In this document: piece after piece, positions 6,391 to 62,880 of the stretch
Numbering within the stretch: position 1 is the stretch's first letter
Layout: every line of letters begins with the position of its first letter
NCBI RefSeq assembly: GCF_964275005.1
Contig: NC_092698.1
Span: 31,117,162 to 31,181,161 of the forward strand
DNA length: 64,000 nt
Direction: 5' to 3'
From: Diadema setosum
Lineage: Eukaryota > Echinodermata > Echinoidea > Diadematoida > Diadematidae
The notes under the pieces: model-generated
Database searches by the model: none
What the model was told of the DNA's origin: nothing
What the model saw: the letters and a program-made list of their open reading frames with translations, nothing else
Made by a program: the position numbers and the translations under genes

Positions 6391-8405
6391 CCTTAGTTCA
6401 GTTCAGTTCAGTTCAGTTCAGTTCAGTTTTTATTTCTGCATTTCAAAATCAATACAAATCCACAAATCAACAAAATACTTACATAGTCATTTACACAGCT
6501 AATATTCGTATCGTTTGGATCTTACATACATTTTTTTTTTTTTTTTTAATTCAAGAACGAATATCATATATGAAAGGAAGCAATAGGAGATGATAAAAAT
6601 GAAATGCAGGGGACCATCATCATAAGCTAAGCTTGACGAGGAAGATGGCCCCAGGTAAAGAGATACATAAGGAAAATCTTGCCACTCACTGAGTGGGGGG
6701 TAATTGTGCAAAGGGCACAACGAAGAAATACATTAAGAAAATCTTGCCACTCACTGAGTGGGAAGTAATTGTGCGAAGGGCGTGCGGTGCAGTGCGGTGT
6801 GCATTGTGTTGGGATGAATCTTGGTTTGTACGTTGAGTGTTATTTTGTGTATCAGTGTGATGAGGTGAATATTACTTCAGTTATGGCCGTGAACTCATTG
6901 TTTAGGGTGTTTGTTGATCAGGTGGTATGAATATTTATGTGTCAGAAGTATACTGGATTATGAGGGTGTTTTTTAGTTCTCGTTTGAAAATGTTCAACGA
7001 CGTACGTTGTTTTAAATTATTGGGTAAAGAATTCCAAATATCTGGTCCATTGTGCTTTAAAGATTTTTGAGCTAAAATGATTCTGGGGTTTTCGAGATGG
7101 TAATCGGACGACTGACGTGTTGGATATGAATGAACGGTGAAATTTGGAGTGAAGAAGCCATCAAAAATTTTTGGAAGACAATTAAATGTATATTTATACA
7201 TAAAAACAGCAGTTTGAAAGGTGTGAAGATCCTCAATTTTTAATGTTTTTAGTTGACGAAATAGGGGATAGGATGGGGATAAGTAACGGGAATTGGTAAT
7301 CAAACGTACAGCACGTTTTTGGAGAGTAAGAATTGGATTAATTTTAGTTGAGCCACAGTTTCCCCAAACGATATTGCAGTATGTGATATGTGGTAAGATC
7401 AATGCATTGTATAGAATAGTCAGGGAATTTTGAGAAATGAAGTTTTTCAGTCGATATAAAATTCCTACAGTTCTTGAGACAGACGTGTGGATATTATGAA
7501 TGTGATCGTTCCAAGTTAAACTCGAGTCAATTGTGATTCCTAAAAATTTAGTAGATCTTACTTCAGTTAAAGATAATCCATCAATATTGATATTATAACT
7601 GCTGTTAATGTTCTGTGAAGCAGTAGGTTTAAAACGTATAAAATTTGTTTTAGAGACATTAAGGGATAATTTATTACATATAAACCATCGGGAGACTTTG
7701 TCTATTTCCGTGTTCAGAGTATTAAACAGTGTTTCGAGGTTCTCATGGGAGTAAAAAATATTAGTATCATCCGCAAAAAGTATAAATTTAAGAGTTTTTG
7801 ATGTATTTATTATATCGTTAATATATACAAGGAACAGTAGGGGGCCAAGAATTGATCCCTGGGGAACACCACATACAATATTAGAATTCGGAGATTTAGA
7901 TGACTTAAATAGTACATATTGCTTTCTGTTGGATAAATAATCAATAATCCAAGAAAGTGCTAAACCACGAATACCATATCTTTTTAATTTGTAAATTAAT
8001 ATATCATGATCTATGGTATCAAAAGCCTTTGATAAATCCATGAAAATTCCTATAAAATGTTTTTTATTTGCAAAAGATTCAGTAATCTTATCTAACAATT
8101 GAATTATAGCTAAATCGGTGGAATGGCCCTTTCTAAATCCAAACTGATTAGGTATAAGTAGGTCATTTACATGAAGAAAAATGTACAGGCGTTTATGAAT
8201 AATTTTTTCCAGAATTTTAGAAATACTAGGTAATAACGATATTGGTCTATAATTTGTTAAAAGAGAAGGGTCGTCTTTTCTTTTGAAAATTGGAACTACT
8301 TTCGCAATTTTTAATGAGTTTGGGCATATTCCAGAAGACTGTGAAAGATTGAAAATGTAAGATAAAGGTGTGGTTATTTGTTTGATGATGGTTATTTGTT
8401 TGATG
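6391..8405 (-). mobile_element. 5'-truncated LINE with a nearly intact RT C-terminal half and an (ACTGA)n tail
   Basis: The minus strand is open from about 8390 to 6935. It shows canonical non-LTR reverse transcriptase blocks in order: TNYRPISLLPSISKILEKII, NQFGFRKGHSTD, MDLSKAFDTIDHDIL, CGVPQGSILGPLLFLVYIND, the catalytic FADDTNIF, then KFLGITIDSSLTWNDHI and the LINE C-terminal WNSLPNNLKQ. Downstream of the stop is a ~0.5 kb 3' UTR containing a ~60 bp tandem duplication (near 6660-6720 and 6720-6780). It ends in a pentanucleotide tail, GTTCA repeated about seven times on the plus strand (6393-6427). The 5' end is missing. The domain style and tail fit the CR1/L2/Jockey group. The long open frame suggests a fairly recent insertion between the DHFR genes. 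Confidence 0.88.
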
Positions 8406-8550
8406 ATTTAGTCCAGACATAAAAAAAATGCGCCTTCTTTGTATTCGTTTAAAAAAAAAAAGATTGAAATCATTCCTCCTTAAGTCTTATGATGTAACAG
8501 AAAGAAACTAAGTTTGTATGTCTATTTTTTTAAGCATGTATGTTTTGTAA

Positions 8551-15731: not shown

Positions 15732-16300
15732 TTAAAGGACAAGTCCACCTTCATAAACATTTGGATTAAGTGAATACAGAATTATTAGTAAAACACATCA
15801 GTGAAAGTTTGGGGAAAATCGGACAATCCGCTCAAAAGTTATGAATTTTTAAAGTATCTGCACAGTCACTCCTGGATGAGAAGACAACTACAGTGTATGA
15901 TGCCACATGCGTAGAACGTTTAAGGAAAATATAAAGAGATTTTCACAAACTTTAGTTTCCGACAAAAGTGCACATTTCCTCGACCTGTCACCCACGTAAT
16001 GTTAAGGGTAATATTATTCCCCCTAACTGCTGAAAGAGGCAAGTCAAGTGTTCTTTTATTATGCGAGAAAAGTGAGAATAAAATATGTTGAATTTTCTTT
16101 ATATTTTCTTAATATTGTTGTACACGACATCACAAGCTGTAGTAGTCTTCTCATCCAGCAGTGACTGAGCAGAAACTTCAAAAATTCTTGAATGGATGAA
16201 GAACTTTTGAATGGATTGTCCGATTTTCATCAAACTCTCACTTATGTGTTCTACTAATGTCGCAATGTTGATGCTTTCACTCAATCCACATTTCTCTTTG
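15732..16300. mobile_element. Palindromic TTAA-type MITE (family A), 3' flank of the EMI gene
   Basis: The left end is TTAAAGGACAAGTCCACC. The two halves are inverted copies of each other: GGAAAATCGGACAATCCGCT and CACTCCTGGATGAGAAGAC on the left, GTCTTCTCATCCAGCAGTGA and GGATTGTCCGATTTTCATC on the right. The last ~20 bp of the right end, including its TTAA, have been lost. It ends about 15 bp beyond the EMI stop codon, so it probably lies inside that gene's 3' UTR. Full-length relatives are at 47247 and 62316. Confidence 0.8.
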
Positions 16301-32711: not shown

Positions 32712-35700
32712 CATTACTATTATCATTATTATTATTATCTTACACTAAAGAGCAAGTTTTTCATATTTCAGAAGTTGTACGAAAGATACTATCTCAGTGT
32801 TCAACTCATCGCCGCATGAATGTGAGATTTACAAACAAAGCACCATATATACGCATAATGGCAAAACGCATGATGGAAAAGAACCTGGTTGACCTTCTCA
32901 AAATGAGAACAACAGCTATGTACAAGAAAAGGTGTTACAGATATGTACTAACAGCAATTGACGTCTTCAATGATGCTATCCGACCTCATATCTAAAAGAC
33001 AGGGTGTAAATTGGGCACGTGAACTTCCCGACTATGCAAGGGTATTTAAACCTAAAAAAGTCTTGGGTTGGAACACCCCATTCATTGCTTTCTTTGACCG
33101 ACATCCCGATATCTCAAGCAGAAAAAAACCGAGTGGAACAAATGATATGCAAGAATGGCGCAGGAAAGTGAACCTCATCAGAAAGCAGGATTCTGTCTCG
33201 ACAAAACACGAATATTAAAGATTGAGATTACTCCAGCGAAGGAGTCATGTTAGGGACAAGGTTCTTGTTTGATTAGCAAAGTAGGAAATTGAGAGTGACG
33301 AACAGAATGACGATCTTGCCAGGCAGGATTACTGAAAGGAAATTACAGAAACACAAATATAAGGTTGCTATTATACATCAGTGTATGAATACGAAGACTG
33401 AATAATGGTTTCTGTTGGTGGACATACCTGCCGATACTCTGTCCAATCAACACAGACAAGAACGGGTCACCTTTCCAAGCAGCCAACGGGTTAAGATCTT
33501 ATTATATAGGGCTAACTGTAACTCAGACATTGCGAACTGAACAGATAAGTGAAGACTCTGGACTCTCTGTACATTTGAATCCAACAGGAGATGGCAATTG
33601 CCAATTTAGTGCCATATCTGATCAGTTGGCAACAATGGGAATCTTTAGATCCCCTATCACTCTTAGAAGAGAAGTGGTTTGATACCTGGGAGCCACCGCA
33701 TACCTTAAGAATTGAAGAGAATGGTCAGCATTTCTTACGGAAATAATAATGACTTAGACGACAGTGTGCACGTTAATGGCCTAGATGACGGAATGCACAA
33801 TGATGGCCTGGACAAAGGATTGAAGGATGATGACCTGAAAGAAGGAGTGAACGATGATGGCTCTGTTGACGAGGGAGTGAATAATGATGACTTGGACTAG
33901 GGAGAAGACAATAATGACTCAGTCGACGAAGGAGTGTAGGATGTCTAGACGACGGCATGCAAGCTGATGGCCTAGAAGTCAGAGTGCACGCTGAATCATT
34001 AAAAAAAAAATTAAGATCATATCACCATAAAGAAGCTATCTGTCAAGTTTGGTGAAAATCTGTAGTGGAGTTTACAAGAAAATGAAAATGGTAAAGGTTC
34101 ATGAGCAGTTTTGTGAGACATCGAGTTCATCTACACGTACATCAGTACGTAATAACAGTGAAGTGCTTGATTTGTACATTTCCCGGAAAAACTTAACATT
34201 TGTACATTTCCCAGCCAGACGCTTGTACATTTGCCGTTTATGCAATTTTTTAGATTTGTACATTTCCTGTTGATGCAATTTTTTAGATTTGCACATTTCC
34301 AATCAAGACGTTAGTACACTTCCTAGTGTTTGTACAAATCCCGGCTCCATACACCCTGCCATGATAACTCAAGTGAATAAACACAAGACATCTAGACACG
34401 CTACACACCAGCCCTTATGAGCTGACACAATGTTGTATGACAGGATGTGATGTTAAAAGGTTTTTGCACATACAGTACACACATTCAAGTGAATTGAAAA
34501 GCATACTGGCTAATTGGCATGCAACAAGCTTGACTGTAACTTGGATTCAAGCATGCTATATTTCGTCGGCTGAGAATGAGAAGGGCGTTAAGTTGTTTCG
34601 AACACTATGGCTCAAATTCACAAAGGCGGTACAACCTTTGTCCATGGTTTAAACCATGGATAAAGACCATAGTTTTGCATGGGGCGCCAAGTGTCGCATG
34701 ACCCATTTCATTACGAAATCAGTCATTTCAAAATGAAATAGGCCATGCGACACTTGGCGCCCCATACAAAACTACGGTCTTTGTCCATGGTTTAGGGATT
34801 TCGTAACGAAATAGGCCATGCGACACTTGGCGCCCCATACAAAACTACGGTCTTTGTCCATGGTCTAAACCATGGACAAAGATTGTACCACCTTCGTGAA
34901 TTTGGGCCTATGGGTTAAGTGGCAACTTAACGCTCTCCTCATTCTCATCCGACAATTTGTAAATGCCCATAAATTCACCAAAAAAAAAAAAAAGAACACT
35001 GCATTGTAATAGAGGTTACTGGATCACTACTGCTGCGATGATAAATCGATGCATGATTCCTTTAACTTCTGGGATGTAAATGTGACTTGCAAATAAGGAT
35101 TTCCTCTGCCCCTCCCCCCCCCCCCCATCCAAAGAAAAAAGGAAATATAGGAAGTCAAATATGGTGGCACAGTGCATATTCATGTTTATGGGATAAAAAA
35201 GAAATACTGAGAAGCTGAGATGGACTTCAAAAGCTGTTTTGGAAATGACTTGAACTTAAGCATTTGTGCAGTTCTAAGTAGGTTTACTTCTATTTTCACC
35301 CATAAACTTTGAATTCATGACTTCTACTAGTTGTTGACTGTGCTGAATTTTGTGATAATAAATCAAAGCACATAGACCTCCTTTGAAAGAATACAAAGGT
35401 ATAGCAGTCATAGAACTACAAATGGTGTTTAGGAGAGTTTGTCATGGTGGCACATGACATTGTGACAACACAGACTTAAGAAGCGCTCTTTCGGCAAAGC
35501 AGTTCAGAATGAGAAGTTACATCACACACCTTGCGATACCACATTCTACTTTGGCTTTTACATATCCACTGGTAGGTCTCTAATCAAAAGCCAGATTGAC
35601 ACACAAATAGAAATGCTTTTGTGACACCATATTGCAATCAAAACACTCTAGTTGCAGAACAAGTCTTTTGATGCCATTGAATTGAGAGAAATATGAGGTA

Positions 35701-47300: not shown

Positions 47301-50300
47301 TAAATTTTGTAGAACACATCAGTGAAAGTTTGGGAAAAATCGGACAATCCATTCAAAAGTTATAAATTTTTAAAGTATCTGCACAGTCACTGCTGGATGA
47401 GAAGACTACTAGAGTGTATGATGTCACATGTGTACCACGATATAAGGAAGATATAAAGAGAATTTCACAAAATTTTACTTTTTGAAAAAGATGCACATTT
47501 CTTCGACTCGTCACTGACGTATGTTAAGGGTAATATTATTCCCCCTTGCCTTCTGAAAGAGGGAAGTCAAGTGTTCTTAAATCATGCGAGAAAAGTGAAA
47601 ATATCTTGAATTTTCCTTTTACTTTCTTTATCGTTGTACACATGTGACATCACAAGCTGTGGAAGTCTTCTCATCCAGCAGTGACTAAGCACAAGCTTCA
47701 AAAATTCATAACTTTTGAACGGATTGTCCGATTTTCCTCACATTCTTGCTGATGTGTTCTATTAATATTGCTGCGTTCACTCAATCCACATGTCTATAAA
47801 GGTGCACTTGTCCTTTAACATTTTTTTTTTTTTTTAAAAACAATAAAAATCGATGTAGACATGACTAAGTAGGCACTTTTGGTGTATAGATTCATGTGAA
47901 GTACTCTTATCATGATCAACTATTTCACAGCAATAAATCTGGACAACAGAAAATACTGCTGTGGTGAGAGGCACTGGTCTCTTCTTGGCAAATACTTGCG
48001 ATATTCGGGTATACTCAGGACTCATCCTCAATGGGTTAAAACACCTCCCTGGCCTCACCTTAAAGTTGGGTAGGCGCACCACCTTGAGCACGCTGATGCA
48101 GAAACAGATACCCAGGATGTCGAGGAGGATCCAGGCGAAGGGCTCGTGGCGGTAGAAGAACCAGCACATGACAAAGGCCCCGCAGCCAAGCCACAATATG
48201 GCACTGGTGACGGTGGGCCGCTTGTGAATGATGGGAAGGAGGGGCAGCCTTGTTTCGTGTCAAGACAGAATGAAGGGAAGCGACTGAATTAATAGCAGAT
48301 AACTAAGCTGCACAGGGTAGTGCTTTATCTTGAATGCTGCAACAGCCTTTTTCCAGAACCTTCTACAGACTTTTAATAGAAATATGGTTTAATTTGTTAT
48401 TTCCTGTGTAAGATAATAATGAGTTTCATTCAAATAGCTACAAGTACATCATATTTCATGCATACAGTAAAATGCTACCAATGTGCAAAGTCTATGGATG
48501 TAACAACCTGTTGGCAAATATGATTGAATCATATTTTCTATGGTTTATTGCTCACACATGTAAAGAAGATCATATTTTTCATCATACAGCTGAATAGGAT
48601 ACAGCTACGGTATGCACAATGGTAATTAAATTCATAAAGCATCTCCTATCTTGTTAGACATGTTTACATTTTTAACTTACTGCATGGTTTTAGCGGTACC
48701 ACAGAAGCACAAACAAAGCACTACAAGTTATTAATGACTTGTTAAGTTTGAATTAATGTTATGAATGTCATAAATATTTCACCACAATATGCAGCAAAAG
48801 TACTATTATTCTAAAAGCATATAACCAGAAAAAAAAAAGGAGAGGTATTTGTCAAGACAAAGAATAAAAATTGAAGCCTGATGATTACCTCTCTCTGCAT
48901 GGGAACACAAAGTTGACTACAGGCAAGACAGTGGTGTGCATACCAGACCAAGCACCGATGCAATATAGGGCAATGACAATGTACACTGCAAGAAGGCAAA
49001 GAAAAGTCATTGTGGATCATAAATAAACCTATGAAAAGTGCTGAAATCAAAAACAAAATTTAATTGAATAAAAAAAAATTGCCCATTTCATAGAATGCAT
49101 GAGACTTATATGTACACATACACAAATGTGTTATACTTTATAACACTGATTGCTCACATTTAAATTTTCATTTTTTTAAAACAAAATATCAGACATACCG
49201 GTACACTTCAAGTAAATCTGTATCAAGGTTGTCTGTGGACTAAATCAAAGTCAACCAAGAACTTTGGTATGGACTGAAATGAAAATGCAGTTCATCTACA
49301 ACGCAATGAAAACCAAAGTGTCAGGTGACATTATTTTTTTGTTAATACCCTATTCCAACAAGTGAGTCTTGAATGAGCCATGAACTATAAAATAAGAGTT
49401 GTTTGTAAAGAATGCCAGTAAACAAAGTAAATTTCCTGCTTTATTGACTCATTGACAGGTGAAATCAATACCAAATTTGATACATCCTTTGTCATCAAAA
49501 TGATTGACAGCAGAAGTATTGATTTCTTGCTTGTTTCTTGTTTACTGATAGGGAGCATAATCCACACATAACACCTGTTTTTATGACATGCCAACTGCTT
49601 GGAGCTGTGCAGCTCAAACACCTGTGTTTGGTACGTAATATAACACATTCACACCAACAAGTAAGTACAGATGCCTGGTTTGGGGCATCTAAAAATTAGC
49701 CAGGTGTTTACTAATATTCTTTTGCAAATATATGAAAAGAACTTAAAAAAAAAAAACACGACTTGTTCTGACTTCAAGAATCCAAATTTTGCATTAAACA
49801 TGTCTTATTGAGTAGACAAGTCATCTGGTGTTTACTAATATTCTTTTGCAAATATAAAAAAAACCTTAAAAAAAAATAAACATGACTTGTTCTGACTTCA
49901 AGAATCCAAATTTTGCATTACACATGTCTTACTGAGTAGACAAGTCATCTCAATTCCATTTCCTGTTTTAGTTATTTAACTTATTAACCGCATAGAACAG
50001 ATTATTGCTGTAAAAAGCAAAACATGAGGACATTAGAGCCAATTCATGTCAAAGAATATTACAGATTTCACCCCTTTCATTCAATGCAAATTTCATGCTT
50101 TGCTTGCATTGTATTTGTGCCATTTTTGCATTTTTTAACACTACAATTTTCATTCACAAGGGACAAAGATCCCCTCCCCTTCTTCAAACATAAAGGTGAA
50201 TAATGTGAAGACCAGTTGCAGCTTAGGTTGGAGTAGCTCATATCATGGTAGACCTACATACCAAATTTGAACAAGATCTGTTAAGAAATGTAGCCTATAG

Positions 50301-53300
50301 AGCACACACAAACCATCCACCAACAATATGACCTTTGACCCTATAAAAGATGGAACAATTGGGGCAGCAGATCAAAAATCTATAGGCTTGTAGATTATAA
50401 CATGGTAGACCTTCATACCAAATTTGAACAAAATCTGTCAAGGAATGTATCCTACAGGGCTCACACCTGTAAATAAAATGGAATGTCCCAGACCCCTTCA
50501 CAAATTCGTACCAAAGATACCAAAATAAATGAAGAAAAAAAATAATTACAAATCAATAATGCAGTCTGGCATAAAACTGAATAGCTGCAGATATTGAGTA
50601 TGAATTCCTCTACAAACTGCATTTTGGTTTGAAGATGAAAGCTTTTCTCATGGAATTTGAAGGGACTATATTTCATTAGGTGCATGTACAGAAAATAGGT
50701 GATTTTTTTTTTTTTAGTGAAGAGAACTCGTAGTCTGGCTTTGCGGACCCTTGGACAGAGTTTGAGCTGAAGAGCCCGCCCTGGATATTTGATGGATGAC
50801 AGGATATAGCTCACTTATCCAGGTTAATGAAGATGAAACACCTCATTTCTCCCAGCTTTTTTACAGAATTTTTTGAATTTTGAATTTTAACACACATCTC
50901 TACGGGGAATTATTTACCCGTGTGAGCCCTATAGAGCACACACAAACAAAATCAATAGGCTTGTAGATTACATCATGATAAACCTCCATACCAAATTTGA
51001 ACAAAATCCATTAACAAATGTGACCTCCAGAGCGCACACAAACTATGCACAAAAAATCCTAATTTTTCAGCATTCTTTTCTCTCTTTCTCTTTTCCTGCA
51101 AAGGCACTTTTGCAACTTTGCATCTTTTAATCTGAAATGCCGCTAGCAGTCACATTTTTAAAAAACCCCACTTGACAGAGACCCCGTTTACAGTGCAAGG
51201 CTCGGCCGCTGCCGAGCCGCGGCCGAGCCCAGCCCCGCTTCAGTGTAAACGCGCAAAAGGCTAAATGCGAGGCCAAAATTGGCCTCGCATTTGGCCTCGC
51301 TCTGGAGGTGGTCTCGGCCGCGGCCGAGCCGCGGCCGAGCCCGGCCTCTTCTTGGTGTAAACGCAAACTGGGCCAAATGCGCGGCCAATTGCGCGGCCAA
51401 TTTTAGTCTGGCTTCCAAACCCTCTGCCTGTATCTTTCGCTATTCAGGATATTAACCCCCTCAACGTGGAAAACTAGTATAGTTTAAGGTGGTTTTGTCC
51501 TGCAAAGGATTTTTTCCTTCCGCAAAGGCCTTTGCCCGAACGGCGACTTCGTCGCCACGGAATTCATTTGGCAAAGGGTCTGAAAACCAGACAATACCAA
51601 ATTGCGTTTGTTTACAAGCAGAGCGCCACTACGACAAAATATTGAAAGGTTTGAATCAAAAGCGCGGCCGAGCCCAGCAGTGTAAACGGACAAAATTGCG
51701 AGGCTCGGCCGCGCAATTGAGGCCGGTCTCGGCCGCGGCCGAGCCGCGGCCGAGCCCAGCCTCGCACTGTAAACGGGGTCTAAGACCGCAATTGTGAAAA
51801 CTATTCAGACAGTTGCCTGGGTTAAAACTCAGTTTAAAGACCAAATCAGACTACTGTATTAAGGCCACTTGTTGATACATACCAACTGGACTATAAAAGA
51901 AGAAGAGGAGGAGGAGCAGAACCATGATCATAAAGACCCAGCAGATAACAATGGGCGGGGTTATGGTCACCGCTTCCTCCTCCGCACTTTCATCCTCGTC
52001 TGATTCACTGGACTCGCCACTGTTCACATTTTGGTAGTGTCCTTGGCCATCGCGTCGTTCGTGGCGCTTTTCTCTCCTATATCTGTGTAAAAAAAGTAAA
52101 AAGAACACAAAAACATATATAAACTCAGATATATGTAAAAATGAGGTCATGCACAGCTGGTATCAGACTATGACCTCATTATCCATTTGGGAATTACAAT
52201 GTACACTGTTAGCAAAGAAATTGTTGTATGTAATGCTTGAAAAATGGTTGCTTCAAGGAAGACTGAGTGAGGTAGTTACCTTACTTGAGGTTAAACTTTA
52301 TCAGTGATAAAGATAAGGGGTGAAGTGAAAAGAGATTTTTAGTGATTAGAGTGCAGTGTTGGTGCAAGGGTATATGCTTCTGGAAACATGTGTGTGTGCA
52401 TGTACATATGAAGGAGTTGTTAATTTGTATATCAAAGTCAGATCAGGTTTGCTTTGTGAGAAATTCAGAGCAAAGGAAAAGAGAGACCAAGAACAAATAG
52501 AACAACGTTTGATGATTTACATTGTATCGTCTGAGATGTAATATTCATGTATGTTTTCTTAGCGAGAGCTTCAAAAGAATTAATTGAAAAAAACGTCTAC
52601 ACATGATCACATCTGAACATCCCGTCAATGAGATTTCAAGGACCGTGGATTGACATTACCTTCGGGTTGATTACTCAAATGCTTTTAAGTGGAATGATGA
52701 GCTAAATAAGACGATACATTTTGATTCAATAGGGAGAAAATATCAATTTCAGGATTTTCACTTTGTGAAATATAAGGCTGGAATGCGACAGTTAATGAGA
52801 GTGGATACATATGCAGGAAACTGACGAAAAAAACCCCCAAAAAACGACCGCCTTTTTTTTTTCTTTTTTTTTCTGCAGTAAGTGTTCATGTGAGAGTTAA
52901 TACCATTTTCCATTTAAACTCATAGTGAGACAGAGAGAATTCTTCCCCTAAAGGAATCATGGGTGATTACTTCACATACTGTTTGTATCCCAGAATGCCA
53001 GCCCAGTATCCACCCACAGCAACGGTACCAGTGGCCATCAGCCAGATGACGAAGATATTGTAGTCCCACTCGGGCACATCCGGGCTGTACAGGGCTGCTT
53101 GAGGGCTGGCACTTCTATCCTGTATGCCAGCAGAGAAAGTCATGAAGTCTAAAGCTGTTTCTTTTCACTGTGATGATGGATTACAATTGTTCTCCAACTC
53201 CTATGATATACAACTAACATGATCTTGCTTTATAAGTGTCTATGTTTTCTTTTTTTCATAAAGAATCTACAATGTACAATTGTAGTTGTCGGAGAGCAAG

Positions 53301-56300: not shown

Positions 56301-57987
56301 CTCTTGGAATTACATTGTAAACGCTCTTTCACATTTCATAAGAGGTTTCTCATCTCACCAAAGAATATTTGAATCCTTATGTTAGGTCTCAATCAAAACT
56401 ATATCATCCCTTTATTGCAAGACTTACACCATATTCTGAATACTCTATATTCTTCACAACTCTCTTGAATGGAAATGAAGAAGTCATCTTACCTTAGTAA
56501 TTTACCATGAGATTTTGGATTAACAAACTTGTCAGCTTCAAATAAAAATATAATGTTTAAGGTCATCTACATTATGCCACAATCATTTGTAGCCATGAAT
56601 AACTTGCTAAGTACTGTACAATTATTTTAGTTTAATTCAGTTCATTTTCAGTAAGCATTAATAAAGGTAATGTAGCATAGTTCTGGTATGCCTGCAGAAC
56701 TGTCAAATTTCACTCCAAAATGTACATATACATATGCCTAAGAAATGTGTAGAATAACACTGTAATAACAAGATATCCGTTAGGTAATGTGAAATATTAA
56801 CCAAAAGGGTTTGCCAGAGTCGCAATCTCAGAACTTACCCGATTGGGGTCAGGCTAAAACACTCGGACTCGCGGACAACTCGGCCTTGCTTTGACGGCGG
56901 GGCCGAGTTGTCTCTCTGGATTGTAAAGTGTTGTAGAAACCTACTATCTACTACAATGGGAGCGCTTAACCACTTTGCGTTCTGGCTGGTCGCAGTTATG
57001 GGCCCAGTTGATACAACGCGCGCATCAAAGAACCTCTTTTGGGGTGCATACAAACTTAATGTGCACCTGTGTACAAAATATCACCATCACGAACTGCATG
57101 TAAATTGTCTGAAACAGGGTCGAGTTGTCCCTGCCCTGAGACCGAGTTAGCCTGGATCCTTCTGGAGTAAAAGTCGGGAAAGAAATCTATAAAATTACCG
57201 CGGGATACCGACTAAGCAACTTATTATATATTTATTATTCTACACTTTGATCTCAAAATACTCCAAAACAACTCACCATCCAAGCAAATTGCATCAGTCA
57301 AGTAAGTTTCTTGGTCTCTTTTGATATATTCAGTGATATTGGAAGCAAATATGAAATGGTGCAAGATGGTTCTCAAACCCTTACCACTATTCAATACCAC
57401 TCACCAGAAGTAGGCCTACTACTAAGTACTAGGACTAAACAGAGCTGAGATGAGTATAAACTTTACAATAAATTTAAAACAGGTAATATTTTTTAGGGCC
57501 TAACGTTAGAAGTAGAACGAGAGGTCTATTTCTATTTCTAGGTACAAAAGTACAAATGCAGGAAAATTAATAAATCATACAGCATCATGGTATGAACATT
57601 AGCAAAGACAACGTCAATGCAATTGGTGAGGAAACGATGTTGTAATTGTTACTAAGATTCTTTATTTATCGTCATCTCCTACTCTGTAGAGAGTGCGACT
57701 GCTAGGCCTGCCTGAAAATGAACTCGAGTCGTACTCACGTCAAGAACATCACAGATCTTAACGTATGGGACTAGCTAACCCAGCATATCCCTGCCGATGA
57801 CTAATTACGTACAGTAAACAAAAAGGCCTTTTCGACGAAATTGTTCATCAAATACATATAAATTACACACAGTCACGAGCCTAAGCAATATACCTACTAA
57901 TTAATTAACTTCAGAGTTGTGTCAATAACTTACCATATGCAACAGAGATAAAAGAATAACAACCCTTTCCATCTTTACGATCGCCAT
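24350..57987 (-). CDS. SPPL2: Signal peptide peptidase-like 2, intramembrane aspartyl protease
   Basis: SPPL2 proteases are polytopic GxGD aspartyl proteases of late secretory and endolysosomal membranes that cut type II membrane-protein stubs within the bilayer. Fifteen minus-strand coding exons join in frame into 562 residues (human SPPL2A 520, SPPL2B 592). Residues 1-18 begin a signal peptide. A protease-associated (PA) domain spans about 25-150 with the conserved RGNCTF at 87-92. The first membrane span is about 163-183, followed by an acidic cytosolic linker (ESSESDEDESAEEEA) and the second span. Catalytic motifs: YD with Asp364, GFGD with Asp423, and PAL at 474-476 within QPALLYLVP. A disordered Ser/Pro/Glu-rich tail of about 57 residues follows. 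Every intron is GT-AG and every phase agrees, so the gene looks intact. Total coding length is 1689 nt. I cannot assign it to the A, B or C type; an invertebrate single-copy ancestor is likely. Introns carry many mobile elements. Confidence 0.95.
25232..25284. repeat. (AT)n microsatellite
   Basis: About 26 uninterrupted AT dinucleotides in SPPL2 intron 14. Confidence 0.95.
25435..25597 (-). CDS. SPPL2: SPPL2 exon 14 (disordered cytosolic tail)
   Basis: KESVGSPASSRASANVDSTQ, TVQPRTDEGEPSEVERMIHP then VSPQSSQCVGNKES. The composition (Ser, Pro, Glu, Gln) fits the variable tail of SPPL2B. The acceptor TTTATCCGTGCAG is phase 0 and the donor GTAATA phase 1, matching the neighbours. It lies 10.4 kb from exon 13. 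Confidence 0.78.
25598..26713. other. Left part of the large SPPL2 intron, nothing recognised
   Basis: AT-rich intronic sequence. Short ORFs on both strands show no family resemblance. Confidence 0.45.
26714..27035 (+). repeat. Left arm of a ~330 bp inverted repeat pair
   Basis: Begins GCCAGGATTTGTACAAACAC and contains six or so spaced copies of GGAAATGTACAAA. It then reads AACTGCTCATGAACCTTTACC and ends near CGATATGATTTTTATTTG. The whole arm is matched in inverted orientation by 34001-34345. The internal GGAAATGTACAAA array gives it a subterminal-repeat structure like long-TIR DNA transposons. Confidence 0.75.
27270..27523 (+). repeat. First copy of a ~250 bp local duplication, with L2 LINE sequence
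   Basis: This unit runs from GGGGATGGAGGGGTGG through AGAGATTGTTTTAAAAA and GGGATAATACAGTGCTTC into TATTATGATGATGGAAAAAC, a piece of L2 LINE. The second copy starts at 27538 but is split by a Helitron at 27652 and by another insert at 31302. This first copy therefore preserves both empty sites. Confidence 0.8.
27678..27722. repeat. (CTG)n microsatellite near the Helitron 5' end
   Basis: About 15 perfect CTG triplets, 26 bp inside the Helitron terminus. Subterminal microsatellites are a known habit of some Helitron families. Confidence 0.95.
28942..29049. mobile_element. 108 bp MITE inside the Helitron
   Basis: Perfect 19 bp inverted ends: CGTTTTCACATCAGCCCGA and TCGGGCTGATGTGAAAACG, around a T-rich and palindromic (TAGCGCGCTA) centre. 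A target duplication was not clear. Confidence 0.75.
31302..31808. mobile_element. 507 bp insert with AGTA target duplication
   Basis: The sequence AGTA occurs at 31298-31301 and again at 31809-31812. The undisturbed first copy of the flank (27408-27420) has it once, so the intervening 507 bp is an insertion. Its ends (GTGTTGGG and CACAAC) are weakly inverted. Family unknown. Confidence 0.65.
31809..32740 (+). mobile_element. L2-type LINE, decayed 3' end
   Basis: The plus strand encodes degenerate LINE RT C-terminal sequence: CDLGGIFDSNMTMDLKVSNI, then with frame changes LQQLHWLPVEQRLTYKVLLI and AAPRLWNRLPDSVKDCDTVN with FKRKLKLH. The 3' UTR has the typical GTGAGCGCCTTGAGCACCAT block followed by a TTA/ATC microsatellite tail. 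This is the pattern of L2 (Jockey superfamily) elements in deuterostomes. At least two frameshifts (near 32075 and 32160) break it. The copy starts inside RT, so it is 5' truncated, and it continues the second copy of the local duplication. Confidence 0.85.
32753..33720 (+). mobile_element. Fossil integrase/OTU-protease element (Ginger-like or LTR kin)
   Basis: Two remnants are readable. The first resembles the catalytic-core region of an integrase of the KRBA2/Ginger/gypsy type (KRCYRYVLTAIDVFNDAIRP, then NWARELPDYARVFKPKKVLG and WNTPFIAFFDRHPDI). The second, at about 33570-33680, is the start of an OTU cysteine protease (NPTGDGNCQFSAISDQLATM). An integrase followed by OTU is a known architecture in Ginger DNA transposons and related elements. 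The copy is broken in several places, lacks most of both domains and is clearly old. It lies inside the inverted arms at 26714 and 34001, which might be its terminal repeats. Confidence 0.6.
33740..33975 (+). repeat. Imperfect ~30 bp tandem repeats rich in GAT/GAC
   Basis: Repeated GATGGCCTGGACAAAGGA-like units, for example at 33778, 33803 and 33856, encode an Asp/Leu/Gly/Asn-rich acidic pattern in one frame. They follow the OTU remnant and are probably part of the same element. Confidence 0.5.
34001..34345 (-). repeat. Right arm of the ~330 bp inverted repeat pair
   Basis: Read on the minus strand it starts GCCGGGATTTGTACAAACAC and carries the same spaced GGAAATGTACAAA motifs. It then has AACTGCTCATGAACCTTTACC and GGTGATATGATCTTAATTTT. 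It aligns along its whole length with 26714-27035 in inverse orientation. Confidence 0.75.
34565..34953. mobile_element. Foldback MITE with nested inverted repeats
   Basis: The outer arms are GTCGGCTGAGAATGAGAAG and CTCATTCTCATCCGAC. Inside are GGCTCAAATTCACAAAGG and CTTCGTGAATTTGGGCC, then TTTGTCCATGGTTTAAACC and its complement. The centre has a ~100 bp direct duplication containing ATGCGACACTTGGCGCCCCA. The whole could fold into one long hairpin. No coding capacity. Confidence 0.75.
34954..36016. other. Right end of the large SPPL2 intron
   Basis: AT-rich intronic DNA with one poly-C run (35114-35126). Nothing else was recognised before exon 13. Confidence 0.45.
36017..36171 (-). CDS. SPPL2: SPPL2 exon 13 (PAL motif)
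   Basis: AYGVGLVMTFIALTLMQTGQ then PALLYLVPCTVLTALAVGTC and RKEVSELWNGGP. The donor is GTGAAT. If left unspliced the frame adds only VNNHHIL before a TGA, so a short-tailed isoform is possible. Confidence 0.94.
36845..36922 (-). CDS. SPPL2: SPPL2 exon 12 (TM7-TM8)
   Basis: LLVGFCHTYDLKIKFSRIYF then ITSVI, parallel to LLVAYCHRFD of human SPPL2B. It is 8 kb from exon 11; the intron carries both nuclear-receptor-repeat elements. Confidence 0.93.
37113..38106. mobile_element. Repeat element loaded with TGACCTTTGACC direct repeats, copy 1
   Basis: The left end reads GGCGACTGATATGCCTCCGCC and the right end ATGCCTCCGGCCACTTCGTTGGCAGAGGCATA (key blocks GCCTCCGG and GGCAGAGGCATA), giving imperfect inverted termini. 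Inside are diverged ~120-150 bp units. Each has a TGACCTTTGACC cluster, a variant of CCAAGTTTGGTGAAA or AAGTTCCATGAAGATACCTT, and a GGACGGACGG tail. It lies in SPPL2 intron 11 together with copy 2 at 41601. No ORF was found, so it is probably a non-autonomous DNA transposon. Confidence 0.65.
38575..38925 (+). mobile_element. L2-type LINE 3' terminus
   Basis: A short C-terminal remnant (ETFKSKLQNVTYSS) is followed by GAAGCGCCATGAGCAC, GCGCTATACAAGTAGCC and a TAT/TAC/TAA trinucleotide tail. This is the standard L2 3' end, 5' truncated to about 0.3 kb. Confidence 0.7.
39100..39640. mobile_element. Possible MITE or decayed repeat
   Basis: It starts near AGCGCAGACCTCCGCCAAGC and ends with AGACAAACTAACAAACAAAC and CCTTCCCCCTGGGCAGAG, a layout like the tails of the DR1-rich elements (receptor-like repeats, then a GGACGG or ACAAAC run). 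Terminal repeats are weak. Confidence 0.3.
40403..40600. repeat. ~85 bp tandem duplication
   Basis: The unit GTGTACAGTGTATTTACATA through GGCCTGTCACATCATT to GCAAGTCATGACT occurs twice almost perfectly (about 40435-40518 and 40519-40601), with a shorter third copy to the left. Confidence 0.8.
40615..40840. repeat. GC-rich minisatellite
   Basis: A run of GGGCCTGGGCCC, TTGGGCTCTGGGCCCCT and related units, with a 31 bp unit repeated twice at about 40715-40775. It contrasts sharply with the AT-rich flanks. Open frames on both strands through it are Gly/Pro/Ala-rich and probably meaningless. Confidence 0.8.
40920..41035. repeat. AT-rich minisatellite
   Basis: Repeated ATGAATATATGA-like 8-16 bp units. 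Confidence 0.8.
41322..41378. repeat. (GT)n microsatellite
   Basis: About 28 perfect GT dinucleotides in SPPL2 intron 11. Confidence 0.95.
41745..41907. mobile_element. Hairpin MITE nested in the repeat element
   Basis: Ends CAAATGACGCACA and TGTGCGTCATTTG are inverted. Inner arms are TAACTATGGAAT and ATTCCATAGTTA, around AACCCACGAGGCGAAGCCGA and its partner. The whole can form one long stem. Confidence 0.65.
41908..42256. mobile_element. 349 bp MITE with TTTATAGAATGGGTA ends
   Basis: Perfect 15 bp terminal inverted repeats TTTATAGAATGGGTA and TACCCATTCTATAAA. The middle repeats TTTACTGGATGCATGGCC and TAGTGCGCGAAC. It is adjacent to the hairpin MITE and was probably inserted with or into it. 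Confidence 0.7.
43403..44630. other. SPPL2 intron 11, right part
   Basis: AT-rich intronic sequence without a recognised repeat or exon. Confidence 0.4.
44631..44985. mobile_element. Harbinger-like MITE with TAA target duplication
   Basis: Termini AGCCCGCCGCACACTATACG and ATATAGTGTGCGGCGGGTT are inverted and both sides carry TAA, the target duplication typical of PIF/Harbinger. A second inverted pair (GCACACTATACGAC, near 44691, and AGTGTGCGG) lies inside. No coding capacity. It ends 13 bp before the splice donor of SPPL2 exon 11. Confidence 0.75.
45004..45100 (-). CDS. SPPL2: SPPL2 exon 11 (second catalytic aspartate, GFGD motif)
   Basis: IPVLLTVPRFCHSAFSVCNI then YSMLGFGDILVP. Asp423 is the second catalytic residue. 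The donor GTAGGA lies 13 bp from a Harbinger-like MITE. Confidence 0.94.
45101..46917. other. SPPL2 introns 9-10, apart from exon 10
   Basis: AT-rich intronic sequence on either side of exon 10 (46044-46100). No repeat family was recognised. Confidence 0.4.
46044..46100 (-). CDS. SPPL2: SPPL2 exon 10 (loop after YD motif)
   Basis: Nineteen codons, TGESVMVKVATGGQASSEQ, equivalent to the GxSIMVEVATGP loop. The acceptor is ACTTATAG and the donor GTAATT, both phase 0. Confidence 0.9.
46918..46992 (-). CDS. SPPL2: SPPL2 exon 9 (first catalytic aspartate, YD motif)
   Basis: TCVLLLSLLFVYDIFFVFVT then PHLTK. Asp364 in YDIFFVF is the first catalytic residue. Phase 0 on both sides. Confidence 0.95.
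47247..47818. mobile_element. Palindromic TTAA-type MITE (family A), complete copy
   Basis: TTAA flanks both ends; termini are AAAGGACAATTCCACCTTCA and AGGTGCACTTGTCCTTT. The two halves are inverted copies (CGGACAATCCATTCAAAAGT and ACTTTTGAACGGATTGTCCG). TTAA targets are used by piggyBac and Kolobok elements, so it is a non-autonomous relative of one of these. It lies in SPPL2 intron 8. Confidence 0.85.
48059..48248 (-). CDS. SPPL2: SPPL2 exon 8 (TM4-TM5)
   Basis: LPLLPIIHKRPTVTSAILWL, CWFFYRHEPFAWILLDILGI then CFCISVLKVVRLPNFK. The W-A-W-x-L-x-D-x-LGI-x-FC and RLPNFK blocks are highly conserved. Confidence 0.95.
48889..48985 (-). CDS. SPPL2: SPPL2 exon 7 (TM3)
   Basis: YIVIALYCIGAWSGMHTTVL then PVVNFVFPCRE; parallels VYVVIGIFCLASATGLYSCL of the human protein. 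The acceptor is CTTTGCCTTCTTGCAG, phase 2 out. Confidence 0.93.
49703..49950. repeat. 124 bp tandem duplication
   Basis: GGTGTTTACTAATATTCTTT through ACTTGTTCTGACTTCAAGAA to AGTAGACAAGTCATCT occurs twice in a row with few differences, so it is recent. It is intronic. Confidence 0.9.
50225..51040. repeat. Tandem units CATACCAAATTTGAACAA, split by a MITE
   Basis: Three diverged units each carry CATACCAAATTTGAACAA, then AAATGTAGCCTATAGAGC and CACACACAAAC, beginning near 50255, 50410 and 50985. The second is interrupted at 50456-50930 by an inserted MITE with AGGGCTCACAC ends. Confidence 0.65.
50456..50930. mobile_element. MITE with AGGGCTCACAC ends
   Basis: The inverted termini are AGGGCTCACACCTGTAAATAA on the left and TTATTTACCCGTGTGAGCCCT on the right, with two mismatches. 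No ORF of note. Confidence 0.7.
51179..51782. mobile_element. GC-rich MITE with AGACCCCGTTTACAGTGC ends
   Basis: The ends GAGACCCCGTTTACAGTGC and GCACTGTAAACGGGGTCT are inverted. Subterminal GCGGCCGAGCC and CTCGGCCGCGGCC blocks form many overlapping palindromes at 51200-51345 and 51663-51765. The GC content is far above the surroundings. The middle, 51440-51650, is unlike the arms. It sits in SPPL2 intron 6, about 100 bp from exon 6. Confidence 0.8.
51883..52082 (-). CDS. SPPL2: SPPL2 exon 6 (acidic linker, TM2)
   Basis: Basic RREKRHERRDGQG, then the acidic SGESSESDEDESAEEEA, then VTITPPIVICWVFMIMVLLL and a run of Leu/Phe. It ends in phase 1 at GTATGT. Confidence 0.92.
52980..53119 (-). CDS. 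SPPL2: SPPL2 exon 5 (first transmembrane span)
   Basis: ALYSPDVPEWDYNIFVIWLM then ATGTVAVGGYWAG; the VGGYWAG motif at the end of TM1 is characteristic. It ends in phase 2 at GTATGT. Confidence 0.93.
53608..53688 (-). CDS. SPPL2: SPPL2 exon 4 (PA domain end)
   Basis: TPPSFNESIKINIPVVLVDY then KDYTDIK, like the IPVALLSYKDMLDI segment of human SPPL2B. Phase 0 on both sides. Confidence 0.92.
54183..54356 (-). CDS. SPPL2: SPPL2 exon 3 (PA domain core)
   Basis: DYRPLADLLPSPVCSVPKVP leads to the conserved RGNCTFSEKGYYSQQAKAEG then AIVVSKTGT. The acceptor is taken as CATTAAAAG, because an alternative CAG seven bases further in would shift the frame to a stop. Asn89 is a likely glycosylation site. 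Confidence 0.9.
54794..54910 (-). CDS. SPPL2: SPPL2 exon 2 (PA domain start)
   Basis: IHAYYGILSVKYNDGRSSRE then YCITYDPAQFRLAKELQPT; matches the YCxLYNP region of human SPPL2. The acceptor is TTTTCTTTTACAG and the donor GTAAGA, phase 0. Confidence 0.92.
57934..57987 (-). CDS. SPPL2: SPPL2 exon 1 (start, signal peptide)
   Basis: MAIVKMERVVILLSLLHM is followed directly by GTAAGT, phase 0. The hydrophobic run after two charged residues is a signal peptide core. Confidence 0.85.
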
Positions 57988-58230
57988 TTCTAAAGTTGGG
58001 AAATTAGTCTGCAATCCACACCCTAGTGGTTGGCCTGCTGACTCTCGACTACTATACTACATACGGTCATAAATGCACAAAGTCAAATGAATGTGTGTGT
58101 GAGAGTATGAGTGTGTGTGTTTTTTCTTCTTCTTCGTTTTCGCGTGTAGTGTGTGTGTGTGTGTATGTGCTTGTGTAGAAAGGTGGGAAGGGGGTGAGGC
58201 CCTGAGGGAGGAGTCGACAAGTGCAAGAAG
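57988..58230 (-). promoter_or_regulatory. SPPL2 5' UTR and probable promoter
   Basis: The 240 bp between the start codon and the minisatellite element contain two short GT tracts (near 58092-58120 and 58148-58165) and no TATA box. The transcription start is undefined. Confidence 0.35.
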
Positions 58231-59453
58231 TACGGAAGCTTAAAAGTGCCAACCAGATGACGAGATAAGAAGACGAGAAGACAGGTTAAATACCGAGAAG
58301 CCGAGTTATTGCAACTCGGCAAGTCGACTTGCTTGGATCAAGAAGACAAGATGACAAGTTGTTGAAACTCGGTAAGTCGACTCGTTTGGGACAAGAAGAC
58401 ATGATAGCGAGTTGTTGAAACTCGGAAAGTCGACTCGCTTGGGACAAGAAGTCAAGATGACAAGTTGTTGAAACTCGGCAAGTCGACTCGTTTGGGACAA
58501 GAAGTCAAGATGACAAGTTGTTGAAACTCGGCAAGTCGACTTGCTTGGGACAAGAAGTCAAGATGACAAGTTGTTGAAACTCGGAAAGTCGACTTGCTTT
58601 GGACAAGAAGTCAAGATGACAAGTTGTTGAAACTCGGCAAGTCGACTCGTTTGGGACAAGAAGTCAAGATGACAAGTTGTTGAAACTCGGTAAGTCGACT
58701 CGTTTGGGACAAGAAGTCAAGATGACAAGTTGTTGAAACTCGGCAAGTCGACTCGTTTGGGACAAGAAGTCAAGATGACAAGTTGTTGAAACTCGGCAAG
58801 TAGACTCGTTTGGGACAAGAAGTCAAGATGACAAGTTCTTGAAACTCGGAAAGTCGACTTGCTTTGGACAAGAAGTCAAGATGACAAGTTGTTGAAACTC
58901 GGAAAGTCGACTCGTTTGGGACAAGAAGTCAAGATGACAAGTTGTTGAAACTCGGCAAGTCGACTCGTTTGGAACAAGAAGACATGATAACGAGTTGTTG
59001 AAACTCGGAAAGTCGACTTGCTTGGGACAAGAAGTAAAGATGACAAGTTGTTGAAACTCGGCAAGTCGACTCGTTTGGGACAAGAAGACAAGATGACAAG
59101 TTGTTGAAACTCGGCAAGTCGACTCGTTTGGAACAAGAAGACATGATAACGAGTTGTTGAAACTCGGCAAGTCGACTTGCTTTGGACAAGAAGTCAAGAT
59201 GACAAGTTGTTGAAACTCGGCAAGTCGACTCGTTTGAGACAAGAGGACATGATAACGAGTTGTTGAAACTCTGAAAGTCGACTTGCTTGGGACAAGAAGT
59301 CCAGATGACAAGTTATTGAAACTCGGCAAGTCGACTCGTTTGGGACAAGAAGACATGATAATGAGTTTTTGAAACTCGGAAAGTCGACTTGCTTTGCACA
59401 AGAAGTCAAGATGACAAGTTGTTGAAACTGGTTGGCACTTTTAAGCTTCCGTA
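58231..59453. mobile_element. TIR-bounded element made of a 53 bp minisatellite
   Basis: Perfect 26 bp inverted repeats (TACGGAAGCTTAAAAGTGCC continuing AACCAG at 58231-58256, and its exact complement at 59428-59453) enclose the array. If the outermost TA on each side is the duplicated target, the terminus is CGGAAGCTTAAAAG with a TA target, as used by Tc1/mariner transposases. Apart from about 45 bp next to the left end, the interior is only the tandem array, so it is non-autonomous. Confidence 0.8.
58304..59430. repeat. 53 bp minisatellite, about 21 copies
   Basis: The unit is ACAAGTTGTTGAAACTCGGC, then AAGTCGACTCGTTTGGGACA, then AGAAGTCAAGATG. Each copy centres on GTCGAC; the variant AAGTCGACTT is a perfect 10 bp palindrome. 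Two variant types (GTCAAGATGACAAG and ACATGATAACGAG) interleave. Because 53 is not a multiple of 3, the minus strand shows long overlapping ORFs in all frames, which are artefacts. Confidence 0.95.
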
Positions 59454-59777
59454 ATGAAGGGAAGAGAGGTTGAGGAGAGCTGCTGGGGGGGGGGGGGGTG
59501 GAGTTGGTGTTTTTGGACAAAATACAATGACCACATTCTGTTTTGTTGTACAATACCCGTGTGTTGTTGTTATTTTTCATTTCAATTATCAATGTTGATG
59601 ACTGGAATTCCAAGTGTCAAATATCTAGTTTGATGAATAATATCACATTGGACTGTTTGAATGTGGAAGAATGAATAATATTGAAGGAAAAAAAAACCAT
59701 GTGTGTGTGTATGTGTGTGTGTATGCGCGCGCGCGTATGTGTGCCCATTCTGTTTTACACTCCCCATTTCCATTAGC

Positions 59778-60030
59778 ATGGCCGACGCCACGTTTTCAAA
59801 AGTGAGGGGGGAGGGGGACACTTCAGACTTCTGGTGCCACTTCCGGGTTTCATTAGCTAACAAGCAAATGAAAAAAAAAAGAACAAGAAAAAACAACCAC
59901 ACCAAAACCCCCCACAAAAACCATAAAAAACAAAAACAAACAAATAAAAAAAAAAAAAAACCCAACTTATCTAAGGGTCTTTTACAGCGCAACGTCTGTA
60001 CATCTGCAGGGCACCACACCGGGTTTCTTC
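59778..60030. mobile_element. Partial family B MITE copy, inverted
   Basis: GGCCGACGCCACGTTTTCAA, then CACTTCCGGGTTTCATTAGC, match the family B elements at 11701 and 61069 in the opposite orientation. The other end is replaced by an A-rich stretch. Confidence 0.5.
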
Positions 60031-61068: not shown

Positions 61069-61325
61069 CAGGGGCGGCGCAGCCGTGGGGGCCGTGGGGG
61101 CCGTGGGGGCTCAGGCCCCCACACTTTTTGTGCACCATACAAAGGAATATACATAAGGTGTCATCACTTTGGGCCCCCACACTTTTTTCAACCCGGAAGT
61201 ACGTAAGAGGCACTACAATGGGAGGGGAGAGAATGAGCTGAGGACCTTTTTTTTTTTTTTTTTTTTTTTGGCTTGTTAGCTCATGAAACCCGGAAGTGGG
61301 CCCCACAATTTTGAAAACAGTGCGA
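61069..61325. mobile_element. MITE family B copy
   Basis: Begins CAGGGGCGGCGCAG with three GTGGGGGCC units, then TTTGTGCACCATACAAAGGA and GGTGTCATCACTTTGGGCCC, and two inverted CCCGGAAGT sites. It ends near TTTTGAAAACAGTGCG. Same layout as 11701-11946. Confidence 0.6.
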
Positions 61326-62315: not shown

Positions 62316-62880
62316 TTAAAGGACAAGTTCACCTTCATTACATAAGGATTGAGAGAATGTAGCAATATTAGTAGAACACATCATTGAAAGTTTGAGGAAA
62401 ATCGGACAATCCGTTCAAAAGTTATGAATTTTTAAAGTTTTTGTGCAGTCACCGCTGAATGAGAAGACTACTGCAGTGTATGATGTCACATGCGTACAAC
62501 AATATACGGAAAGTATAAAGAGAATTTCACAAAATTTCATCTTTTGAAAAAAGTACACATTCCCTTGACTCGTTACTGACATAATGTTATGGGTAATATT
62601 ATTCCCATTGCCTGTAGAAAGAGGCAAGTCAAGTGCTCTTTTAGTATGCGAAAAAAGTGAAAATGTGTTTAATTTTCTTTATATTTTCTTTATACTGTTG
62701 TACTCATAATATCACGAGCCTTAGCAGTCTCCTCATCCAGCGGTTCCAACACAAAAATTTTAAAATTTCATAACTTTTGCATCGATTGTCCAATTTTACT
62801 CAAACTTTCACTGATGTGTTCTACTAATATTGCTGCATTCTCTTAACCCTTGTGTTTATGAAGGTGAACTTGTCCTTTAA
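62316..62880. mobile_element. Palindromic TTAA-type MITE (family A), complete copy
   Basis: The best-preserved copy: perfect 23 bp ends TTAAAGGACAAGTTCACCTT (continuing CAT) and their complement at 62858-62880, with TTAA at the outer edges and inverted halves throughout (for example CGGACAATCCGTTCAAAAGT). No coding capacity. Confidence 0.85.

Follow-up and report, generated by a model that had tools for sequence, protein, structure and literature searches.

The sea urchin TU elements have a foldback form, with tandem units in their arms. These elements are mentioned in the description of Tetris, a foldback element of Drosophila virilis for which that source gives target-site duplications of 8–10 bp and arms of up to 1,735 bp, with units of about 220 bp (PMC4079207). 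In Galileo, according to the account drawn on here, the repeats of the arms have been proposed to act as additional sites for the transposase (PMC3573991). The IS3EU elements, for their part, are described as ending in TA..TA and as being flanked, as a rule, by 6-bp duplications, with GingerRoot presented as much alike (PMC10045372), and the termini of fungal IS3EU elements are given as TAYGG..CCRTA (PMC12730594).

Here we analyzed a stretch of 64,000 nt from Diadema setosum NC_092698.1—hereafter the window, in whose numbering unprefixed positions are given—which contains, at 58231–59453, an element that we consider, with a probability of roughly 0.8, to be an internally deleted copy belonging to a non-autonomous DNA transposon family.

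Structure of the Window Copy

The element is delimited by two 26-nt inverted repeats of 100% complementarity, the left one beginning with TACGG at 58231–58256 (plus strand) and the right one at 59428–59453 (minus strand). When the window was searched with the inner 23 bases of these ends, allowing up to three mismatches, two matches were obtained (mean of 100 shuffles, 0) and no further copies were found. Between the ends TRF detected an array at 58304–59429 with a period of 53 and 21.2 copies, in agreement with the earlier note, which had described a 53-bp array of some 21 units between perfect 26-bp inverted repeats. The array proper, which we read as one arm of a larger element, occupies 58304–59427 (plus strand; 21 units plus 11 bp), and the CT at 59428–59429 is shared by array and right end, constituting a 2-bp overlap at the joint.

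That the ends bound the array exactly, as had also been stated, is correct on the right, where array and end meet directly, but not on the left, where 47 bp (58257–58303, plus strand) separate them. This subterminal stretch, which follows the end in the full arms of the family, resembles the 53-bp unit (score of 29, the highest among 500 shuffles being 27) and may be regarded as a degenerate copy of that unit. In the larger copies the stretch is present at the right end too, whereas the right end in the window lacks it, and the direct junction there would be a deletion joint. Also absent from the window copy are the right array and the core, and its inverted repeats consist of the 26-bp ends alone, with no long inverted arms. 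The 26-bp end was considered as the origin of the 53-bp unit and rejected, the score having been equalled by 375 of 500 shuffles. Outside the element lies the probable target-site duplication: the AAGAAG at 58225–58230 agrees in five of six bases with the ATGAAG at 59454–59459, a level reached by 1.2% of the six-mer comparisons drawn from the window copy's own flanks; nine clean family members agree here in all six.

Each unit contains a self-complementary GTCGAC, from which a regular series of small hairpins had been proposed. The motif does form part of an 8-bp palindrome, but the hairpin series fared poorly: compared with shuffles, folding gave a z of −0.43 for the consensus unit and −0.82 for a TTGC variant, the outermost unit being the sole unit tested that folded better than its shuffles (z, −3.16). 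In a set of 157 distinct units, from which outermost units and those with more than 14 differences were left out, GTCGAC varied by 2.0% per site versus 10.6% across the unit and ranked fourth in conservation among 48 six-base windows, a pattern that would suit a putative binding site, although it is no proof of one.

As for the neighborhood of the element, we read from the sequence a putative first exon of SPPL2 at 57934–57987 (minus strand), with 18 codons followed by GTAAGT. Its putative ATG at 57987 is 244 bp from the element, which distance bears out the approximately 250 bp upstream of the SPPL2 start reported earlier; and the gene was identified as SPPL2 from a supported signal peptide peptidase domain that lies downstream, at 47834–48259 on the minus strand. 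The SPPL2 region also contains, at three places, a GC-rich CGGCCGCGGCCGAG repeat (51201–51803). Shortly past the element there is an inverted pair of 53 nt and 87% identity (59837–59889 and 61247–61299, CCACTTCCGGGTTTCATTAGC...). Elsewhere in the window, a dispersed palindromic repeat of about 500 bp, MITE- or foldback-like, occurs in three to four copies (15732–16263, 47306–47818, and 62340–62880; also 2260–2614) with inverted arms of 133–196 nt at 80–86%; a 112-nt inverted repeat of 90% at 34609–34908 encloses another inverted pair of 70 nt; and a reverse transcriptase frame of 490 aa at 6935–8407 (minus strand; PF00078, E 1e-37) was read as the remnant of a non-LTR retrotransposon.

A Family with Paired Inverted Arms

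The window's own genome (912.7 Mb, 102 contigs) was searched with the window element, and 110 matches were listed for the 40 best-ranking of 148 candidates, most of the strongest starting at the 26-bp end. Among these same 40 candidates, end and array occur together at many loci with differing numbers of units, which finding supports mobility with these ends, as the earlier note had foreseen for a mobile family; nor are the ends confined to this locus, the end being exact over 24 bases at 19 of 20 loci fetched elsewhere. In this set of 40 out of 148, an array running into the right end was seen in the window copy alone.

In several cases a match on the plus strand has a minus-strand partner some 12–45 kb further on. 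For ten of these pairs—chosen as already paired in the search, and therefore not a random sample—both ends were fetched, and in all ten the ends are in opposed orientation. Nine pairs are clean, with spans of 14,007, 14,270, 15,173, 15,990, 16,463, 21,687, 22,770, 26,506, and 46,247 bp, and every one of them has a perfect 6-bp target-site duplication outside TACGG...CCGTA ends. Duplication lengths of 2–10 bp other than 6 gave no full match in the nine pairs, except for two bases at one locus, and none of 72 mismatched control pairs reached five of six bases. Since in each of the nine pairs the same six bases adjoin the TA on both sides, the element starts with TACGG and the duplication is 6 bp long; accordingly the TA, which had been taken for a flanking target site, is the element's own end. 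The tenth pair, at C19, is composed of two elements, one lying within the array of the other, and was omitted from the duplication count because a clean 6-bp duplication is lacking there. At two further loci, C13:5225253–5229452 and C3:34257300–34261500, family ends in the same orientation are 2.2–2.4 kb apart, suggesting nested or adjacent insertions; the latter locus (4.2 kb) contains two same-direction arms, of 33 and 21 units, and no compact copy.

That the arrays are the body of a family of short elements, as had been supposed, is not supported, since in the larger copies, of 14–46 kb, they lie in the arms; and the contrast formerly drawn with foldback elements, whose repeats lie in the arms, does not extend to the large copies, where the arrays occupy that same position. 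The window copy is unusual because its core is missing.

Interior and Arms of the Large Copies

Each arm of a large copy comprises the 26-bp end, the 47-bp stretch, and the 53-bp array, and the paired arms enclose a core that is common to the copies (17 interior pieces from ten loci). Additional arrays, of 14–16 bp and about 160 bp, were present inside the four elements run through TRF. The core pieces have a mean pairwise identity of 98.3–99.0%, as calculated on the 7–9 copies that could be aligned over at least 90% of each piece. A genome search with the core gave, in the best 40 of 885 candidates scored, some 39 places after split pieces had been joined by eye, with identities to the C9 core of 86–98% and one group near 90%, from which we deduce one recent cluster and another that is more diverged. 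Of the 43 end matches whose start falls in the first 55 query bases, 37 are no more than 45 kb away from a core match, where chance would give about 0.4% per end, paired ends not being independent. The other six—the window copy, one end at C8, three at C3, and one at C9—have no core match nearby, and coreless copies beyond that of the window may therefore exist, although two of the three ends at C3 belong to the same-direction arms described above. The 46-kb copy, C20:741396–787642, contains large internal repeats in the same orientation, with 92–99% identity over up to about 4 kb.

The 17 interior pieces of the ten loci held no stop-to-stop frame longer than 191 aa and no transposase gene bearing the family ends. 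None of the 18 longer interior frames gave a Pfam match above the cut-off, two of them giving weak matches below it, and no codon periodicity was found in the interiors.

From 22 arms we parsed 624 units, 165 of them distinct, the right end at C19 having been missed by the parser and two arms having stopped early, at one and seven units. Nineteen of the 22 arms share one outermost unit, and 20 of 22 have the same terminal 73 bp, arms for the latter comparison having been selected by at most two changes in the end. Agreement with the consensus is high in the outer units (unit 4, 99.2%) and decays toward the inner ones (unit 28, 84%); past unit 28 few arms are left, and the identity to the consensus fluctuates between 80 and 93%. 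Multi-unit blocks are duplicated within the arrays, and the copies differ in the number and order of their units. The left arm at C6, which has rare units in a common order with the window array, was considered as the parent of the latter and rejected, its identity over the whole arm being 0.964 and that of several other arms being higher.

Probable Superfamily and Search for a Transposase

The TACGG..CCGTA termini, present in the window copy as in the nine clean pairs, fit those of IS3EU and GingerRoot, as does the length of the duplication, which is perfect in nine of nine clean pairs, matches in five of six bases in the window, and is not clean at C19. The integrase core PF13683 was found at 126 places in the genome (150 of 809 candidates scored), many of these frames, at more than 1,400 aa, being taken for retroelements. 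By eye, two of the 126 are near parts of the family: C4:45274895–45275083 (minus strand), in a frame of 1508 aa between an end match and a core match, and C37:249314–249493 (minus strand), in a frame of 1017 aa with a core match about 14 kb away. Both were taken for putative nested retroelements, and they constitute the chief weakness in calling the family gene-less.

Origin of the Window Copy

The joint occurrence of end and array at many loci, the paired inverted arms, the 6-bp duplications, the shared core, and the coreless window copy are best accommodated by an internal deletion. A larger member consists, in order, of a 6-bp duplication, a 26-bp TACGG end, the 47-bp stretch, the 53-bp array, a core with 14–16-bp and about 160-bp arrays and without long reading frames, and the same end structure again inverted. 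The enzyme that presumably recognizes the ends and inserts the element with duplications of 6 bp would be supplied in trans and would most likely be a transposase of the IS3EU/GingerRoot type. From such a member a single internal deletion with the 2-bp overlap CT would leave the structure seen in the window, in which the left end is retained together with its 47-bp stretch and about 21 units of the left arm, but of the right end no more than the terminal 26 bp. Against this reading stand the one mismatch in the window duplication, the locus C19, with its lack of a clean duplication, the six end matches with no core match nearby, and the two integrase-bearing frames at C4 and C37, and no transposase gene bearing these ends was found.

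If the window copy is a deleted one, the question is whether the compact form has ever moved, and here we see the chances as even that it arose at its present site, by collapse of a large copy already inserted beside SPPL2. The target-site duplication would be expected under either order of events; the arrays do rearrange by multi-unit duplication and nest within one another, and no sibling compact copy appeared in the best 40 of 148 candidates, as a collapse on the spot would have it; but both ends are intact, and deletion before insertion is not separated from deletion after it.

A more elaborate form of the deleted-copy reading, which we put forward as a speculation with the odds rather against it, would make the family a gene-less giant transposon, of 14–46 kb and mostly satellite-like, moved in trans by an IS3EU-type transposase, in which the 53-bp arm arrays, with their conserved GTCGAC, would bind the enzyme multivalently and thereby enable a noncoding element of this size to compete for it; the window copy would then be the smallest mobile form.

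It is improbable that the large copies derive, by decay or as gene-less relatives, from a different superfamily that also makes 6-bp duplications, Polinton/Maverick for example, though their spans of 14–46 kb do overlap the size of Polintons. Polinton/Maverick elements carry DNA polymerase and integrase genes; the 18 interior frames scanned contained neither of these nor any other Polinton protein domain, and no interior frame exceeds 191 aa. Although duplications of 6 bp, as found here, are also given for Polinton (PMC10045372), the TACGG...CCGTA ends agree with the IS3EU signature as published in the sources used (PMC10045372, PMC12730594).

We regard as quite improbable an independent short element with terminal inverted repeats (a MITE) that captured a minisatellite as its body and is mobile as a family in compact form. 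The intact, identical ends of the window copy and its near-perfect 6-bp duplication are what such an element would display; the junction of array and right end, however, is confined to the window copy among the scored matches, despite the fact that siblings would score highest, 37 of the 43 end matches are near a core, and the joint lacks the 47-bp stretch that closes the arms of the larger copies. The window copy is best read as a coreless derivative rather than as a MITE-captured satellite.

That the paired arms are separate short insertions, brought together in opposite orientation by chance, deserves hardly any credence: nested or neighboring ends do occur (C19, C13, C3) and complex loci such as C19 may have arisen in this way, but for the nine clean pairs the notion is refuted by the common core between the arms and by the 6-bp duplication shared across the full span in all nine. 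Helitrons and Helentrons with central repeats, which make no target duplication and have asymmetric ends, are ruled out by the symmetric inverted ends and the 6-bp duplications.

Under the deleted-copy reading, the locus illustrates one route to a dispersed minisatellite, namely the leftover arm of a large transposon after loss of the interior. Given the variation among copies in how many units they have and in what order, the family could serve to test for an increase in transposition through the repeats of the arms, and also to study the homogenization of arm arrays from the outer end inward.

Comparison with Known Systems

The sea urchin TU elements probably differ from this family in the length of their duplication and in their ends. 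In a limited literature search, no giant foldback element with IS3EU ends was named in the titles and abstract openings. With IS3EU and GingerRoot, as far as those descriptions go (PMC10045372, PMC12730594), the family has in common the TA..TA termini and the 6-bp duplications, and it differs from them in its giant tandem-array arms and in that no transposase was found here. The Pacific oyster CgiSat35 and CgiSat47 likewise are satellite DNA linked to IS3EU, by annotation, their monomers being of 690 and 129 bp and arms and ends being absent from that description as consulted (PMC8268682). The Xenopus miDNA4 and Xmix MITEs are similar in that a short tandem array is spread by a non-autonomous element; but there, by the account used, the array lies within a small element (PMC9659126), whereas in the present family both arms of a large element are made of it, and it takes up the interior in the deleted window copy alone.

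Galileo, of the P superfamily in Drosophila, is described as having arms with tandem repeats, derivatives reduced by deletion to as little as the two TIRs, and chimeric copies without matching duplications, all of which recall the present family, from which its 7-bp duplications and known transposase set it apart (PMC3573991). The present copies form a candidate family with tandem arrays as arms, and their spans of 14–46 kb exceed those of the foldback elements compared, as given in these sources. In form, with 53-bp arrays inverted at both ends of the large copies and no interior frame above 191 aa, the family resembles foldback elements such as Tetris. The likeness to the latter, in so far as that source describes it, comprises tandem units in long inverted arms, a noncoding middle, an unknown source of transposase, and a small relative sharing the ends, which in Tetris is DAIBAM; the differences are the 6-bp duplications, the TACGG ends, the 53-bp units, and the spans of 14–46 kb found here, and among the systems compared Tetris is the nearest published form (PMC4079207).
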